Origin: Granulimonas faecalis
GTDB taxonomy: Bacteria > Actinomycetota > Coriobacteriia > Coriobacteriales > Atopobiaceae
DNA: 64,000 nucleotides
Reading direction: 5' to 3'
NCBI RefSeq assembly: GCF_022834715.1
Contig: NZ_BQKC01000001.1
Span: 904,501-968,500, forward strand
Position 1 is the stretch's first letter, and each line of letters opens with the position of its first letter. Positions 51,165 to 58,343 of this stretch are shown one piece after another. Below the pieces are notes generated by a model that worked only from the letters and a program-made list of their open reading frames with translations, did not search any database and was not told the origin of the DNA. A program made the position numbers and the translations under genes.

Positions 51165-52226
51165 CTACGGGCGGCCCGCGTCGCCCCTCCACAGGTAGGC
51201 GGACGACCTCCCCGACCCCAGCAGCTCCAGCAAGCCGTCGCGCCGGGCCTGCGCGAGCACCCTCTTGACCGTGATCTCGGAGATGTCTGGCAGGGCGGCC
51301 AAGATGTCCGCTTTCCGGAACGGGCCTTGGTGGAAGGCCATGAACTCGACGACCCTGTCGCCTTTGGATGTCGGGGCGCCTCCCCGGCCCTCGAGCCTCC
51401 GGCGAGCCTCTTGCTGGCACTCCGTCAAGGCCTCGAGGTGGAAGGCGAGAAACGGCCTCGGGTCCGACGCGTTCTCGTGCCATCCCATGGAGGATGCCTG
51501 CAAGGCGTCGTAGTACTCGGGACGACGGCGCTCTATGACGGCCTCGAGGGGGGAGTAGAGCACGGCGTCGTACCCGTCCTTGAGGAGCAGGAGCTGTGTC
51601 AGGATCCTGCTCATGCGTCCGTTGCCGTCCGAGAACGGGTGAATGCAGGTGAAGTCGAGGACGAAGGCGCCACAGAGGAGGAGCGGGCTAACGCCGCCGT
51701 CCTCATGAGCTGCCGACCATGCCCGGCAGAGCTCCTCCACGGCATCCGGTGTCCTGCTTGCGGAGACGGGCTTGAACCTCGTGGAGAGGGCGCCGTCGGG
51801 CCCGACCTCCGCGATGACGTTGTCGCTGTCCTTGAAACGGCCCCCGATGGACTCCCCGCTCCTTCTGTAAAGGTCGCGGTGCAGCTGGAGGATGAGCCCG
51901 GGAGTGGGCTCCATGGCGCCGTGGTTCTCCTGTACGAGGGTGAGCGCGTCCCTGTAGCCCGCGATCTCACGCTCGTCATGGGTGCGCGGCGCTGCAATGC
52001 CTCCGGCCACGGCAAGGCCGCGTTCGGGCGTGGTACGGATTCCCTCGATGGCGTTGGAGGCCAGGGTGCTCATGATCCTGGTGTCTGATGCCATGGAGGA
52101 GAGGGGTGCGGCCCTTCCGTCACTGACAGCCTCCCATCCGCCGCGTCCGCGTTCGGTCTCTGCGAGGAGCCCAAGGATGGTCGGGTCCGATGCAAGCTCT
52201 GGCCAGGGGTACTCGAAGAGGTGCAT
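51165..52226 (-). CDS. Fic family protein (class II, with inhibitory motif and C-terminal winged helix)
   Basis: This 353-residue Fic-domain protein has the core 'HPFSDGNGR' (residues 196-204) for transfer of AMP or another nucleotide group to a hydroxyl side chain. The N-terminal 'SNAIEG' (57-62) matches the (S/T)xxxE inhibitory motif, here preceding the Fic core, so it is a self-inhibited class II member. The C-terminus (about 280-345) looks like a winged helix ('DISEITVKRVLAQARRDGLL'). Such proteins may bind their own promoter, and there are GGTATCAT repeats upstream. AAGGAG precedes the ATG. The target is unknown. It is the first gene of the accessory region. Confidence 0.92.
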   Translation of the reverse strand: MHLFEYPWPELASDPTILGLLAETERGRGGWEAVSDGRAAPLSSMASDTRIMSTLASNAIEGIRTTPERGLAVAGGIAAPRTHDEREIAGYRDALTLVQENHGAMEPTPGLILQLHRDLYRRSGESIGGRFKDSDNVIAEVGPDGALSTRFKPVSASRTPDAVEELCRAWSAAHEDGGVSPLLLCGAFVLDFTCIHPFSDGNGRMSRILTQLLLLKDGYDAVLYSPLEAVIERRRPEYYDALQASSMGWHENASDPRPFLAFHLEALTECQQEARRRLEGRGGAPTSKGDRVVEFMAFHQGPFRKADILAALPDISEITVKRVLAQARRDGLLELLGSGRSSAYLWRGDAGRP

Positions 52227-52292: not shown

Positions 52293-52322
52293 TGCACCGG
52301 TCCTGCCAGCCCTCCCAAAACA

Positions 52323-52342
52323 GAACAGATGTACGCTATACT
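52323..52342 (+). promoter_or_regulatory. -10 of the recombinase gene with an imperfect SOS-type box
   Basis: TATACT (52337-52342) is a good -10 hexamer. GAACAGATGTAC (52323-52334) lies just before it and differs by one base from GAACN4GTTC. The mismatch makes LexA control uncertain. Confidence 0.35.
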
Positions 52343-53028: not shown

Positions 53029-53070
53029 CCGGGAACGGTGGGACCGTCTGCGCTTCTCCTGTGAACTTCG

Positions 53071-53194
53071 CAGAACGTAGTCGTTTTGAGGAGCCCCCTC
53101 AAGCGCCTTCTCGAGTGCTGACCCGCCGCGAAATGTGCAGGTAGTTGCTTCGGTTCATTTTCAGATAATACCCTCTCAAAACGACTACCTTTTC
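53071..53194. repeat. inverted repeat bounding a candidate invertible promoter
   Basis: A perfect 14-bp sequence (53077-53090) recurs inverted at 53175-53188. Each copy extends into an imperfect dyad around TAGT/ACTA: left CAGAACG-TAGT-CGTTTTG (53071-53088), right CAAAACG-ACTA-CCTTTTC (53177-53194). Such half-sites around a short asymmetric centre are the layout of small-serine-recombinase crossover sites. The segment between them (about 0.1 kb) ends with TTGCTT (53145-53150) and TAATAC (53166-53171), a suboptimally spaced promoter facing the R-M gene. Confidence 0.6.
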
Positions 53195-53237
53195 GTGACC
53201 TTGGGCCACCCGCCGCGTCCGTTCGAAGGACGCAAGC

Positions 53238-56200
53238 GTGGGAGAGAGCCAGGTCAACCTATCTGTCCGCGAGGTCTTCGACCGTATCGTCGCGGAGTCC
53301 GTCAACAAAAAGGACCAGGGCACCGCCTGGGAGCGGGCCGTCAAGTTCTTCCTTGAGAACGACCCGCTCTATGCCGACAGGTTCGACGGCGTCTGGATGT
53401 GGGCCGACGCCCCCACCAACAACGGCAAGCAGGACGTGGGCATCGACCTCGTGGCCCGTGACGCCAAGACCGGCGAGTACTGGGCCATCCAGGCCAAGTG
53501 CTACACGGACGCCGCCTTGTCCGAGGGCTCCGTGGCCACCTTCTTCATGCAGGCCACGGAGGACGTCTACACCTACCGGGTCCTTGCGGACACCGCCGTA
53601 AAGCTCACCAAGAACCTCGAGGCCTACATCAACGAGCACGACAACGTCGTGCGCATCGGCCTCGACGACATCGAGCGGTCCAACCTCCCGTGGCAGGACT
53701 TCTACACCAACGGCATGCACCTCACCTGCGAGGAGGTGCGGCAGGGCCGCGAACGCCTGGTCTTTGAGCCCCGCAAGCATCAGCGCAGGGCCATCGACGC
53801 CGTCAAGGCCGAGTTCGAGACGGCCGACCGCACCACCCTCGTCATGGCCTGCGGCACCGGCAAGACCCTCACGGCCCTGCGCCTGGCCGAGGAGCTCGTG
53901 CCAGGCGGCACGGTGCTCTTCCTCGCCCCGTCCATCAGCCTCGTGGCCCAGTCCATGCGCGACTGGGCCGAGCAGGTGCGCGGCCGTCTCAACTCCTACG
54001 TGGTGTGCTCCGACCCCAAGGCGTCGAGCCTGGGCAAGGGGGACCCGGCCGAGGTGGCCGAGTCCTACGGCACCCTCTCCATGGTGCCGTATCCCGCCAC
54101 CACCAACTCGGGCCTTCTGGCCTCGCGCTTCCGCGCCGACCCCGGCGCCCTCAACGTCGTCTTCTCCACCTACCAGTCCATCGACGTCATCCATGAGGCC
54201 CAGGAGGCGGGCCTGCCCTCCTTCGACCTCGTGATCTGCGACGAGGCCCACCGCACCACGGGCCGCATGCACGGCGAGGACGGCAAGGCCGACGAGACCG
54301 CCTTCGTGCGCGTCCACGACAACGCCTGGATCGACGCCCGGCGCCGCCTCTACATGACGGCCACGCCCCGGGTCTACCAGACCAAGGACGACGAGAAGCT
54401 CGCCGGCATGGCCAAGGTCTCCGACGGACTCGTGGCATCCATGGACAACCCCGAGGTCTACGGCCGCATCTGCCACCGGCTCTCCTTTGGGGCCGCGGTC
54501 AGCCAGGGCCTGCTCACCGACTACAAGCTCGTGGTCATGCAGGTCGACCAGTCCATGATGCCGCGGTCGATCCAGCGCCTCGTCGCCAACAACGCCAACG
54601 AGATCGAGATGCCCGACGCCGCGCGCTTCCTCGGCGTGTGGAAGGCGCTCTTCGACCGCACCCATGCCGGCGGCGTCATGGATATCGAGGGCGCCGGCGT
54701 CGTCGAGGGCGAAGACACCCGTCGCGTGCTGCACCATGCCATCGCCTTCGCGGCCAACATCGCCGCGTCCAAGTTCCTCTCCGACCAGTTCCAGCATGTG
54801 GTGGACGCCTACCTCCAGGGCATGGAGGAGGAGGGCTCGGACTCCGGTGACGGCGGCCGTCACGTGCGGGTGGACGTCAGGCACGTGGACGGCACCATGA
54901 CCGCCCCGGAGCGCGCCGAGCGCCTCGACTGGCTTGCGGGCGGCGATGACGACGACGTCTGCCGAATCCTCTCAAACGCACGCTGCCTCTCCGAGGGCAT
55001 CGACGTGCCAGCCCTCGACGCCGTCGTCTACCTCTCCAAGCGTCGCAGCAAGGTGGACATCATCCAGTCCGTCGGGCGCGTCATGCGCACGTCGGCGGGC
55101 AAGCGCTACGGCTACATCATCATCCCCATCTTCGTGGCGGACGGCAGCGACCCCGGCGAGGCCCTCTCGTCCAGCCGCGAGTACGGCCGCATCTGGGATG
55201 TGGTCTCGGCCCTGCGCTCCCACGACGAGCGCCTGGACGCCAAGATCAACGCCGCCTCCCTGGGCGACTCCGAGCCCCTCAAGGAGGTCGTCGAGTTCGA
55301 GGTGCTCGACCCCTCCCGCCTCGACAGGCCCAAGAACGTCGCGCACCGCGCTCACCGGGTGGGGGAGGACGCCCGCGACGAAGACTACGAGCCCACGGCC
55401 CCCGAGAAGCTCAAGCGCGGCGAGGTGGACCCCAACCAGGGGCAGCTCCTCCTGGGCGAGGACGAGGACTCCCTCCAGGAGATGGCCCGCGCCATCCGCG
55501 CCCAGATCGTGCGCAAGTGCGGCACCAAGATCTACTGGAACGAGTGGGCGGGCGATGTCGGCGCCGTCACCCGGGCCCGGGCCGACCAGATTCGCTCCCT
55601 CGTGGCCGAGCCGGGCGAGGCGGCCGACGCCTTTGACGGATTCCTCACCGGTCTCCGGGACACCCTGAACCCCGACTACGACGCGGACCGCGCCGTGGAC
55701 GTGCTGGCCCAGCACGAGGTGACCAGGCCCATCTTCGACGCCCTGTTCAACCAGGACCAGGTGCGCGAGGGCAACCCCATCGTGGCCGGCATCGACCGCG
55801 CCCTGACGGCCCTCTACGACGCGGGCCTCAGGTCGTCGCTGGACAGCCCCGAGCTCAACGACCTCTACTCCCAGGTGCGTGTCATCGCCTCCCAGGTGCA
55901 GAGCGACGCCGCCAAGCAGAACCTCATCAAGGAGCTCTACAACGACTTCTTTGCCGCGGCCTTCAAGGGCACCGCCGAGGAGCTGGGCATCGTGTACACG
56001 CCCGTGGAGGTGGTGGACGCCCAGCTCCACATGGTGCAGAGGGCCCTTGAGCGGGAGTTCGGCCAGCATCTCGGCGACAGGGGGGTGCACGTCCTCGACG
56101 GCTTTGCCGGCACGGGCACCTACCTCACGCGCCTCATCGAGGACCCCACCCTCATCTCGGACGAGGACCTGCCCTACAAGTACGAGCACGACCTGCACTC

Positions 56201-58343
56201 CAACGAGATCGTGCCCCTGGCTGCCTCCATCATGGACATCAACATCGAGCAGTCCTACCACGCCCGCATGGGCGGGGCCTACAAGCCGTTCCCTGGGGCG
56301 CTCCTCTGTGACACCTTCCAGTTGGGGGAGGAGGACAATGTCATCGACCGGGGGACCTTCCTCGAGAACAGCGAGCGCATCGAGGAGCAGGTGAACACGC
56401 CCATCACGGTCATCGTGGGAAACCCGCCGTACCGTGCCGGTGACAAGAACAACACGGGCAACCAGAACGCGAAGTACAAGACGTTAGATGGGCGCATCGC
56501 CGAGACCTATGCGGCGAATACAAAGGCGAGCAACAAGAACTCCCTCTACAACCACTACATCCGTGCGTTCCGCTGGGCCAGCGACCGCATTGGAGACAGC
56601 GGAATAGTGTGTTTCGTCTCCGGAGGCGGCTGGCTCTCTGGCGAATCTGGTGAAGGGGTCAGGCGTTGTTTCACGGAAGAGTTCAACGATATATATGTAT
56701 ACGATCTACGGGGAAACAAAGAGTTCCGTCGGCTTTCCCGAGAGCAGCTCGATGCCGAGGGCGACAATTTGTTCGGAAGTGGCTCTAAGTCCCCGATAAC
56801 CGTCACGCTCCTGGTTAAGAACCCGGTATCTTCAGGGCGCGGGATAATACATTACCGGAATATCGGGGATGGTCTCTCTCGTCAGGAAAAGTTGGACATT
56901 CTCAAAGAGGCAGTGGGCGTCGACCCCCAGTGGGACACTGTTATTCCCGACCGTCACGGAGACTGGCTCGATCAGCGAGACGACTCTTGGTATGAATTCG
57001 CGCCGATGGGCATCGAGAAGCGTAAGGGTATCCTCGGACTCTTTGATATTTGGTCCTGCGGACTGAAAACACAGAGGGATCCTTGGGCATGGGGCTACTC
57101 AAAGAGCCAGGTCGCCCATCAGATGGCTGAACTCATTGGCAATACCAATGATGCTGTCGATGAGATGAGATGCATGGGCTCAAAGACCGTTCCCAGGGAC
57201 GATAAGCGCTACAGCTGGACGAGGCGCATCGAGGACTATGCCAAGCGGCATATGAATATCGACTACGTTCCGGACTCGGTCGTAGTGGGCTGCTATAGGC
57301 CGTTCTGCAAGCAGTGGGTTTACTACGAGCGGACGATGAACGAAAGGACCTACCAGCAACCCCGCTTTTTCCCGCTCGCCGCAGGCGAGCGGGCGAAAGG
57401 ACCTACCAGCAACCCCAATGCTGCCTCTTTGACAGAGGTGACGGCTGAGGCTGGTATGAAGGGAAAAAGCGGCCGAAATGACCTACCAGCAATGTCCCCT
57501 CACTGTCTCACAAATCTCGAGATATGTATGACCGGCCCAGCTTCGGGACGAGAGTTCTCATGTCTTATATCAGCTCAAGTTCCTGATTTGCACATGCAGA
57601 GCACTTCCCAGTGCTTCCCCCTCTACTGGTACGACGAGCCGTCGGGCGATGGGCTTCTCGGCCGCTCCGAGCCCGTGCGCCACGACGCCATCACCGATGA
57701 ATCCTTGGCCGTGTTCCAGGAGACCTACGGAGACACCTCCATCACCAAGGAGGACATCTTCTTCTACGTCTACGGCCTGCTCCACTCGCCGGAGTACCGC
57801 AAGCGCTTCGCCAACAACCTCAAGAAGGAGCTGCCCCGCATACCGCTCGCCAAGGATTTCCGTGCGTTCGAGCAGGCCGGCCGCAAGCTCGGCGAGCTCC
57901 ATGTGAACTATGAGTCGGTGGAGCCCTGGCCCGTGGAAGAGGCCGGCTGCTCGGAGAACCCCGGACGGACCGAGAAGATGGCCTGGGGCAAGGTGCGCGA
58001 CAAGAAGACCGGCAAGCTCGTCAAGGACTTCACCGTCCTCAAGGTGTCCGACAGCCTCACCCTGCGCGGCATCCCCGAGCGGGCCCAGGAGTACGTGGTC
58101 AACGGCAAGAGCGCCCTTGCATGGCTGGTGGACCGTTACCAGATGAAGGTGGACAAGAAGAGCGGCATCGTCAACGACCCCAACCTCTACGCGCCGGACA
58201 ACCCGCGCTACATCGTAGACCTCGTGGAGTCGGTCATTACGGTGTCCTTGGAGACGCTGGACATCGTTGACTCCCTGCCGACCCTGAACGAGCTGCCGCA
58301 CCCGGCCAACTGGCCGGCAGCCTGGAGCATGGACGCAAAATGA
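53238..58343 (+). CDS. Type ISP single-chain restriction-modification enzyme
   Basis: This 1701-residue protein combines all R-M activities. In order it has an Mrr-like nuclease (about residues 50-100, 'GIDLVARD' and 'IQAKCY'), a superfamily 2 helicase (Walker A 'ACGTGKT' near 205, 'CDEAH' near 334, 'QSVGRVMR' near 612), a coupler, an adenine methyltransferase (motif I 'DGFAGTGTYL' near 955, motif IV 'NPPY' near 1062) and a target-recognition region to the end ('QCFPLYWYDE'). This is the plan of LlaGI/LlaBIII, which translocate along DNA before cutting. The GTG start follows AAGGA, which is partly inside a hairpin (53215-53233). DNA from about 56440 to 57600 is lower in G+C and carries internal repeats. 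Confidence 0.9.
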   Translation: MGESQVNLSVREVFDRIVAESVNKKDQGTAWERAVKFFLENDPLYADRFDGVWMWADAPTNNGKQDVGIDLVARDAKTGEYWAIQAKCYTDAALSEGSVATFFMQATEDVYTYRVLADTAVKLTKNLEAYINEHDNVVRIGLDDIERSNLPWQDFYTNGMHLTCEEVRQGRERLVFEPRKHQRRAIDAVKAEFETADRTTLVMACGTGKTLTALRLAEELVPGGTVLFLAPSISLVAQSMRDWAEQVRGRLNSYVVCSDPKASSLGKGDPAEVAESYGTLSMVPYPATTNSGLLASRFRADPGALNVVFSTYQSIDVIHEAQEAGLPSFDLVICDEAHRTTGRMHGEDGKADETAFVRVHDNAWIDARRRLYMTATPRVYQTKDDEKLAGMAKVSDGLVASMDNPEVYGRICHRLSFGAAVSQGLLTDYKLVVMQVDQSMMPRSIQRLVANNANEIEMPDAARFLGVWKALFDRTHAGGVMDIEGAGVVEGEDTRRVLHHAIAFAANIAASKFLSDQFQHVVDAYLQGMEEEGSDSGDGGRHVRVDVRHVDGTMTAPERAERLDWLAGGDDDDVCRILSNARCLSEGIDVPALDAVVYLSKRRSKVDIIQSVGRVMRTSAGKRYGYIIIPIFVADGSDPGEALSSSREYGRIWDVVSALRSHDERLDAKINAASLGDSEPLKEVVEFEVLDPSRLDRPKNVAHRAHRVGEDARDEDYEPTAPEKLKRGEVDPNQGQLLLGEDEDSLQEMARAIRAQIVRKCGTKIYWNEWAGDVGAVTRARADQIRSLVAEPGEAADAFDGFLTGLRDTLNPDYDADRAVDVLAQHEVTRPIFDALFNQDQVREGNPIVAGIDRALTALYDAGLRSSLDSPELNDLYSQVRVIASQVQSDAAKQNLIKELYNDFFAAAFKGTAEELGIVYTPVEVVDAQLHMVQRALEREFGQHLGDRGVHVLDGFAGTGTYLTRLIEDPTLISDEDLPYKYEHDLHSNEIVPLAASIMDINIEQSYHARMGGAYKPFPGALLCDTFQLGEEDNVIDRGTFLENSERIEEQVNTPITVIVGNPPYRAGDKNNTGNQNAKYKTLDGRIAETYAANTKASNKNSLYNHYIRAFRWASDRIGDSGIVCFVSGGGWLSGESGEGVRRCFTEEFNDIYVYDLRGNKEFRRLSREQLDAEGDNLFGSGSKSPITVTLLVKNPVSSGRGIIHYRNIGDGLSRQEKLDILKEAVGVDPQWDTVIPDRHGDWLDQRDDSWYEFAPMGIEKRKGILGLFDIWSCGLKTQRDPWAWGYSKSQVAHQMAELIGNTNDAVDEMRCMGSKTVPRDDKRYSWTRRIEDYAKRHMNIDYVPDSVVVGCYRPFCKQWVYYERTMNERTYQQPRFFPLAAGERAKGPTSNPNAASLTEVTAEAGMKGKSGRNDLPAMSPHCLTNLEICMTGPASGREFSCLISAQVPDLHMQSTSQCFPLYWYDEPSGDGLLGRSEPVRHDAITDESLAVFQETYGDTSITKEDIFFYVYGLLHSPEYRKRFANNLKKELPRIPLAKDFRAFEQAGRKLGELHVNYESVEPWPVEEAGCSENPGRTEKMAWGKVRDKKTGKLVKDFTVLKVSDSLTLRGIPERAQEYVVNGKSALAWLVDRYQMKVDKKSGIVNDPNLYAPDNPRYIVDLVESVITVSLETLDIVDSLPTLNELPHPANWPAAWSMDAK
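57341..57493 (+). repeat. three short direct repeats and a hairpin inside the R-M recognition region
   Basis: A 23-bp sequence at 57341-57363 recurs exactly at 57394-57416. A third, shorter and slightly altered copy lies at 57474-57492. Between the first two is a perfect 10-bp hairpin (57371-57380 with 57384-57393, loop GCA). The copies are read in three frames (ERTYQQP, KGPTSNP, NDLPAM). The extra 40 or so residues interrupt a region that is normally continuous in Type ISP proteins. Confidence 0.8.

Follow-up and report, generated by a model that had tools for sequence, protein, structure and literature searches.

Promoter inversion by serine invertases is well established as a switch for the capsule loci of Bacteroides (PMC5903667, PMC3090145). 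Restriction-modification (R-M) systems are also known to vary, by hsdS shuffling, by hsd inversions in Mycoplasma and by slippage (PMC5903667, PMC11868660, PMC11892184). The inversions at hsd1 of Mycoplasma pulmonis are attributed to Dybvig and Yu (1994), as cited in PMC11892184, and repeat slippage as a source of phase variation in Type IIG and Type III enzymes is cited in PMC11868660 and PMC7911514. For Eggerthella lenta, a 2026 preprint describes megabase capsule inversions at a different 16-bp repeat with no adjacent recombinase (PMC13174815), which is another mechanism than that of the switch discussed here. A search of open-licence papers returned no phase-variable Type ISP enzyme, no invertible promoter matched with an R-M system and no SOS-controlled phase invertase.

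The stretch of DNA analyzed here (64,000 nucleotides, hereafter the window; G000:C1:904501-968500) belongs to the 2.23 Mb genome of Granulimonas faecalis and encodes, on the same strand and 209 bp apart, a small serine recombinase and a Type ISP R-M enzyme, with a short segment bounded by inverted sites lying between them (Table 1). The recombinase is full length, aligns with Sin, Gin and the gamma-delta resolvase, and has kept the catalytic Ser and Arg motifs (GYARVSS/SIDRIGRN, as compared with Sin), while a putative C-terminal helix-turn-helix was matched by HTH_28 and HTH_23 at E 3e-4, below the Pfam cut-offs. The R-M protein has the single-chain Type ISP architecture, comprising an Mrr-like nuclease, a helicase, a coupler, a methyltransferase and an ISP specificity domain (PF13156, PF04851, PF22240, PF07669, and PF18135, all above cut-off). 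Its gene start, GTGGGAGAGAGCC, is conserved in G027 and G028, the two other genomes in which such a recombinase adjoins a Type ISP gene. A hairpin pairing the ribosome-binding site may limit translation of the Type ISP gene, and a similar pairing with a changed stem is present in G027 (z -0.94). A Fic-domain gene lies on the opposite strand at 51165-52226, between priA and the recombinase, and had no match in the G027 and G028 loci.

Table 1. Features of the recombinase–Type ISP interval, in window positions.
Feature	Position	Strand	Remarks
LexA (SOS)-like box AGAACAGATGTACG	52322-52335	+	11/12 core positions of GAACAGATGTTC; about 90 bp before recombinase start
TATACT, likely -10 of recombinase promoter	52337-52342	+	1 bp after SOS-like box; conserved in G027/G028
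Serine recombinase (invertase), 204 aa	52414-53028	+	PF00239, E 9e-32; GYARVSS and SIDRIGRN catalytic motifs
Left crossover site AGAACGTAGTCGTTTT	53072-53087	+	central AG at 53079-53080; 11/12 match to family dyad AAAASGNNNNCSTTTT
Predicted invertible segment between exchange points	53080-53185	.	106 bp center to center; inversion predicted from homologous loci
Alternative candidate -10, GATAAT	53164-53169	+	family promoter model
Best candidate -10, TATTAT, towards recombinase	53165-53170	-	family promoter model, not significant
Right crossover site AAAACGACTACCTTTT	53178-53193	+	central CT at 53185-53186; 12/12 match to family dyad
Hairpin GCGTCC-GTTCGAA-GGACGC pairing R-M ribosome-binding site	53215-53233	+	perfect 6-bp stem; fold z -2.07
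Type ISP restriction-modification enzyme, 1701 aa, GTG start	53238-58343	+	Mrr_cat_2, ResIII, ISP_coupler, Eco57I, Type_ISP_C

The locus is like the capsule switches of Bacteroides fragilis (Mpi and FinA) in having a small serine recombinase, short inverted sites and a putative invertible promoter segment, and the wider family to which it belongs is like them in having mostly capsule and surface genes as targets. It differs in that each recombinase is local, beside its own segment, and not a master invertase like Mpi, in that the target here is a Type ISP gene, and in that the crossover site appears to double as the -35 in part of the family. The relation of the window recombinase to Mpi is weak (NF009949, 36.7 bits against a cut-off of 272). 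With M. pulmonis hsd1 the locus would share the regulation of an R-M system by DNA inversion. There, inversion shifts coding segments of a Type I hsd locus with respect to a promoter, whereas here a 106-bp non-coding segment would turn before a single-chain Type ISP gene. Inversion acting on an R-M system is also what links the locus to the hsdS shufflons of Type I systems (PMC5903667, PMC11892184), in which inversion inside the coding sequence alters specificity; in the window no coding sequence would be inverted, and a shufflon was rejected because the segment lies outside the recombinase and R-M reading frames. As in the slippage of Type IIG and Type III enzymes, an R-M enzyme would be switched randomly, with a possible phasevarion, the mechanism here being site-specific inversion.

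A perfect 14-bp inverted repeat between a serine invertase and the R-M gene had been described in the earlier note, and both of its copies were recovered at the same positions, GTAGTCGTTTTGAG at 53077-53090 and its exact reverse complement at 53175-53188. The repeat is real and not a product of chance: when the 210-bp intergenic region was shuffled 20,000 times, a perfect inverted repeat of at least 14 bp arose twice. It is also unique in the genome, these being the only two copies. One other perfect inverted repeat of such kind was found in the window. Imperfect dyads around TAGT/ACTA with asymmetric centers, also claimed before, are present at both copies (AGAACG-TAGT-CGTTTT and AAAACG-ACTA-CCTTTT), their central dinucleotides AG and CT being complementary, and the 14-mer is the stretch common to the two 16-bp sites plus their inner edges. 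Two inverted, dyad-symmetric sites with complementary asymmetric centers thus flank a short segment, as is characteristic of invertible promoters. An attenuator or terminator reading of the repeat was rejected, as no terminator was found between the recombinase and the R-M gene and the arms lie 84 bp apart.

To place these sites in a wider context, homologs of the recombinase were compared across the class Coriobacteriia, where 94 of 398 genomes carry close homologs (E <= 1e-30). In total 83 loci were read, made up of 80 loci of close homologs and the Type ISP-linked ones. The dyad AAAASG-NNNN-CSTTTT recurs directly 3' of the recombinase across this family. When a site pair was defined as two dyads separated by 70-450 bp whose central dinucleotides are asymmetric and complementary, an inverted pair was found directly 3' of the recombinase at 39 of the 83 loci, whereas the 700 bp upstream gave no pair at any of the 83 and shuffled sequences gave none; as the loci are related to each other, these counts overstate their independence. 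A few more loci that fail this rule show a pair with more degenerate arms. The spacings between sites fall into clusters of 105-107, 116-118, 126-127, 137-141, and 148-150 bp, with a period near 11 bp (resultant 0.86) that was equaled in regularity by 0 of 2000 random sets, a probability that is indicative only given the relatedness of the loci. The spacing therefore appears to follow the DNA helix, as would happen if two sites on a small loop have to face one another. The window sites, 106 bp apart, conform to the pair rule.

The genes lying behind the sister segments encode capsule or polysaccharide functions, adhesins with VWA, FctA, SpaA, MucBP or List_Bact repeats, and a NusG-like factor. 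In G383 (L111, G383:C1:82464-89057) an Eco57I-type methylase and a T5orf172 protein lie behind a sister recombinase whose site pair has a spacing of 107 bp, and from this second R-M system it can be argued that control of R-M genes by the recombinase family probably arose more than once. The first methylase frame of this locus looks shifted. Two further observations concern the switches themselves. At L078 (G316:C67), the region 95-420 bp 3' of the recombinase holds three crossover sites, and 114 bp of segment sequence are perfectly duplicated there in inverted orientation, possibly a duplicated switch. At L089 (G181) and L093 (G100), the recombinase and switch are 94% identical between genomes of different families, a likeness that suggests horizontal transfer of such switches.

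Inversion itself is visible at homologous loci. Four pairs of close relatives (G100/G104, G181/G100, G378/G277, and G400/G217) carry the segment in opposite orientations: in all four the recombinase (94-98% identical) and the left flank (84-96%) align forward, and the segment is 92-96% identical only as the reverse complement, against 48-57% forward. In the L115/L117 comparison the outer right flank was masked by N. These pairs strengthen the proposal of the earlier note that the repeat copies mark serine-recombinase crossover sites, the segment being found in both orientations among related genomes. The check for both orientations that it had suggested gave a divided outcome, with inversion seen in the four homologous pairs and a single orientation shared by both Type ISP-linked relatives, the segments of G027 and G028 being identical and no opposite orientation being seen at a Type ISP-linked locus. 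The family search returned no further genome of the window's genus, which is represented by one genome, and a search of viral contigs for the flank pattern of the window locus gave no match. On the strength of the homologous loci, the reading of the window interval as an invertible segment is well supported, and inversion would be expected in this species too.

Of roughly 20 Type ISP loci in the class, some of which are short or broken by contig ends, the recombinase adjoins the R-M gene in three, namely in the window, G027 and G028. In all three, which span two genera, the recombinase, site pair and Type ISP gene occupy one chromosomal place, priA-def. Identity to the window proteins in G027 and G028 is 68-69% for the recombinase and 74-79% for the Type ISP enzyme, and their crossover sites (GAAAGGTGTGCCTTTT / GAAAGGCACACCTTTT, site pair AAAGGTGTGCCTTT, 105 bp apart) differ in sequence from those of the window. 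The arrangement has thus persisted although both site copies changed their sequence in step, which indicates selection for a working pair. The G028 recombinase (L004/L158) has a premature in-frame TAA stop, though its segment is identical to that of G027. In both relatives the C-terminal end of the Type ISP enzyme recurs downstream of the gene as a second copy, 66% identical (L157:10836-11045 in G027 and L158:12828-13037 in G028).

The promoter content of the segment is less clear. The earlier note had placed a promoter directed at the R-M gene at TTGCTT (53145-53150) and TAATAC (53166-53171), and this was not borne out: each hexamer matches its consensus at 3/6 positions, the two are 15 bp apart, and the pair did no better than chance by consensus scan, weight matrix or a family-trained promoter model. 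No promoter was found in a consensus sigma-70 scan of 53029-53238, and the best weight-matrix scores were much the same in both directions, 6.4 for the R-M gene against 6.2 for the recombinase. The family-trained model, which called the direction correctly for nearly every training locus when that locus was left out, gave 7.0 towards the recombinase and 1.6 towards the R-M gene, neither of them significant against a shuffle 95% limit of 8.7. The earlier view that the sequenced state is ON finds no backing here, as this model leans, without significance, to the clone having been sequenced OFF.

Clearer signals were found among the relatives. In loci with an ACAC core, often capsule loci, a TATAAT sits within the segment, at a distance of 21-22 bp from the far site in most cases. 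In those with an AGAC core, a -10-like hexamer lies exactly 17 bp from the TAGACT/CAGACA of the site in 13 of 19 loci (e.g., L117, L119, and L142; five of the 13 are close relatives), any other offset being seen in at most five loci. From these positions, the simplest reading is that the crossover site would supply the -35 and the segment the -10, so that a promoter, directed inward over the segment, would be assembled at the end that holds the -10. By the marks of these two classes most sequenced loci are OFF; the window segment fits neither class well. A GCAG-like element in the middle of the segment was considered as a direction marker and dropped, being inconsistent across the family.

Upstream of the recombinase, a LexA (SOS)-like box stands out. 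The palindrome GAACAGATGTTC occurs 40 bp upstream of recA (confirmed by PF00154) in the window genome, which also has LexA. When compared with an operator of the GAACNNNNGTTC type lying over a promoter, the window holds GAACAGATGTAC, with one core mismatch (GTAC for GTTC), beside the -10 and conserved in two genera, the box of G027 and G028 being AGAACAAATGTACG at the same distance before the recombinase. No SOS-like box was found in the 220 bp upstream of the other 80 family recombinases. In the window genome AGAACANATGTWC occurs at 8 places, against 0 for the reversed control. Going by gene names read from the sequences, perfect palindromes also precede sbcD (49 bp), a dinB-like polymerase, an alkA-like gene and an operon with an xseA-like gene, with a close variant 12 bp ahead of a ruvC-like gene. 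A perfect SOS-type box was also observed at a patatin-like gene (G000:C1:2025595, L190), and both this box and that of sbcD are conserved in G027 and G028. It may be, then, that the window recombinase, unlike its relatives, is SOS-controlled.

Taken as a whole, it seems likely that the interval 53072-53193 is an invertible control segment flipped by the adjacent recombinase, with the Type ISP enzyme phase-variable and the recombinase repressed by LexA. The serine recombinase encoded directly upstream would pair the two inverted crossover sites and flip the 106 bp that these enclose. Judging by other members of the family, transcription signals of the segment would drive the Type ISP gene in one orientation (ON) and point back into the recombinase gene in the other (OFF), making R-M expression phase-variable. 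LexA probably represses transcription of the recombinase, in which case DNA damage would raise flipping.

It is also conceivable, if rather unlikely, that the segment inverts while the Type ISP gene is transcribed mainly by read-through from the recombinase promoter, inversion serving only to tune expression or to set antisense transcription over the recombinase. The closeness of the two genes on one strand and the lack of a detectable terminator between them would allow read-through to express the R-M gene in either state of the segment; the window segment has no clear promoter in either direction, and the recombinase promoter is conserved together with the SOS-like box. However, relatives of the segment have clear promoters at fixed positions, and the next gene of many relatives is unrelated and well apart from the recombinase and would need a promoter of its own. 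The weak promoter of the window segment would also fit a worn-out switch, in which the sites and recombinase are relics and inversion has been lost, and so would the imperfect arms outside the 14 bp, as in the left site, and the interrupted recombinase of G028. Such decay appears improbable, given that the window recombinase is full length with its catalytic motifs and that the 14-bp core is perfect with complementary central dinucleotides. Plasmids and transposons often carry small serine recombinases of similar domain content, and a mobile-element resolvase whose site adjoins the R-M gene by chance might be imagined. This can be given very little credence when 39 relatives whose downstream genes are unrelated have an inverted site pair at this same position, when inversions are observed between relatives, and when the priA-def position is conserved in two genera.

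The reading preferred here, of a segment inverted by its neighboring recombinase before the Type ISP gene, would mean that the bacterium probably switches a defense gene on and off at random, and perhaps more often after DNA damage. A more speculative extension, which we regard as possible and hold only tentatively, is a defense switch responsive to DNA damage: with the recombinase repressed by LexA, damage (e.g., by phage or by restriction itself) would flip the segment before the Type ISP gene, shifting part of the population between restriction-on and restriction-off states and altering the methylome. The SOS-like box leads to the prediction that mitomycin C raises flipping of this switch and not of the switches of its relatives. 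Promoter inversion is a known kind of switch; the Type ISP target and the possible SOS control appear to be new. The recombinase family is widespread in the class, otherwise standing before capsule and adhesin genes, and offers a ready set of switches to test. If the reading is true, a dedicated promoter inverter before a single-chain Type ISP enzyme would represent a further route to phase-variable defense and DNA methylation.
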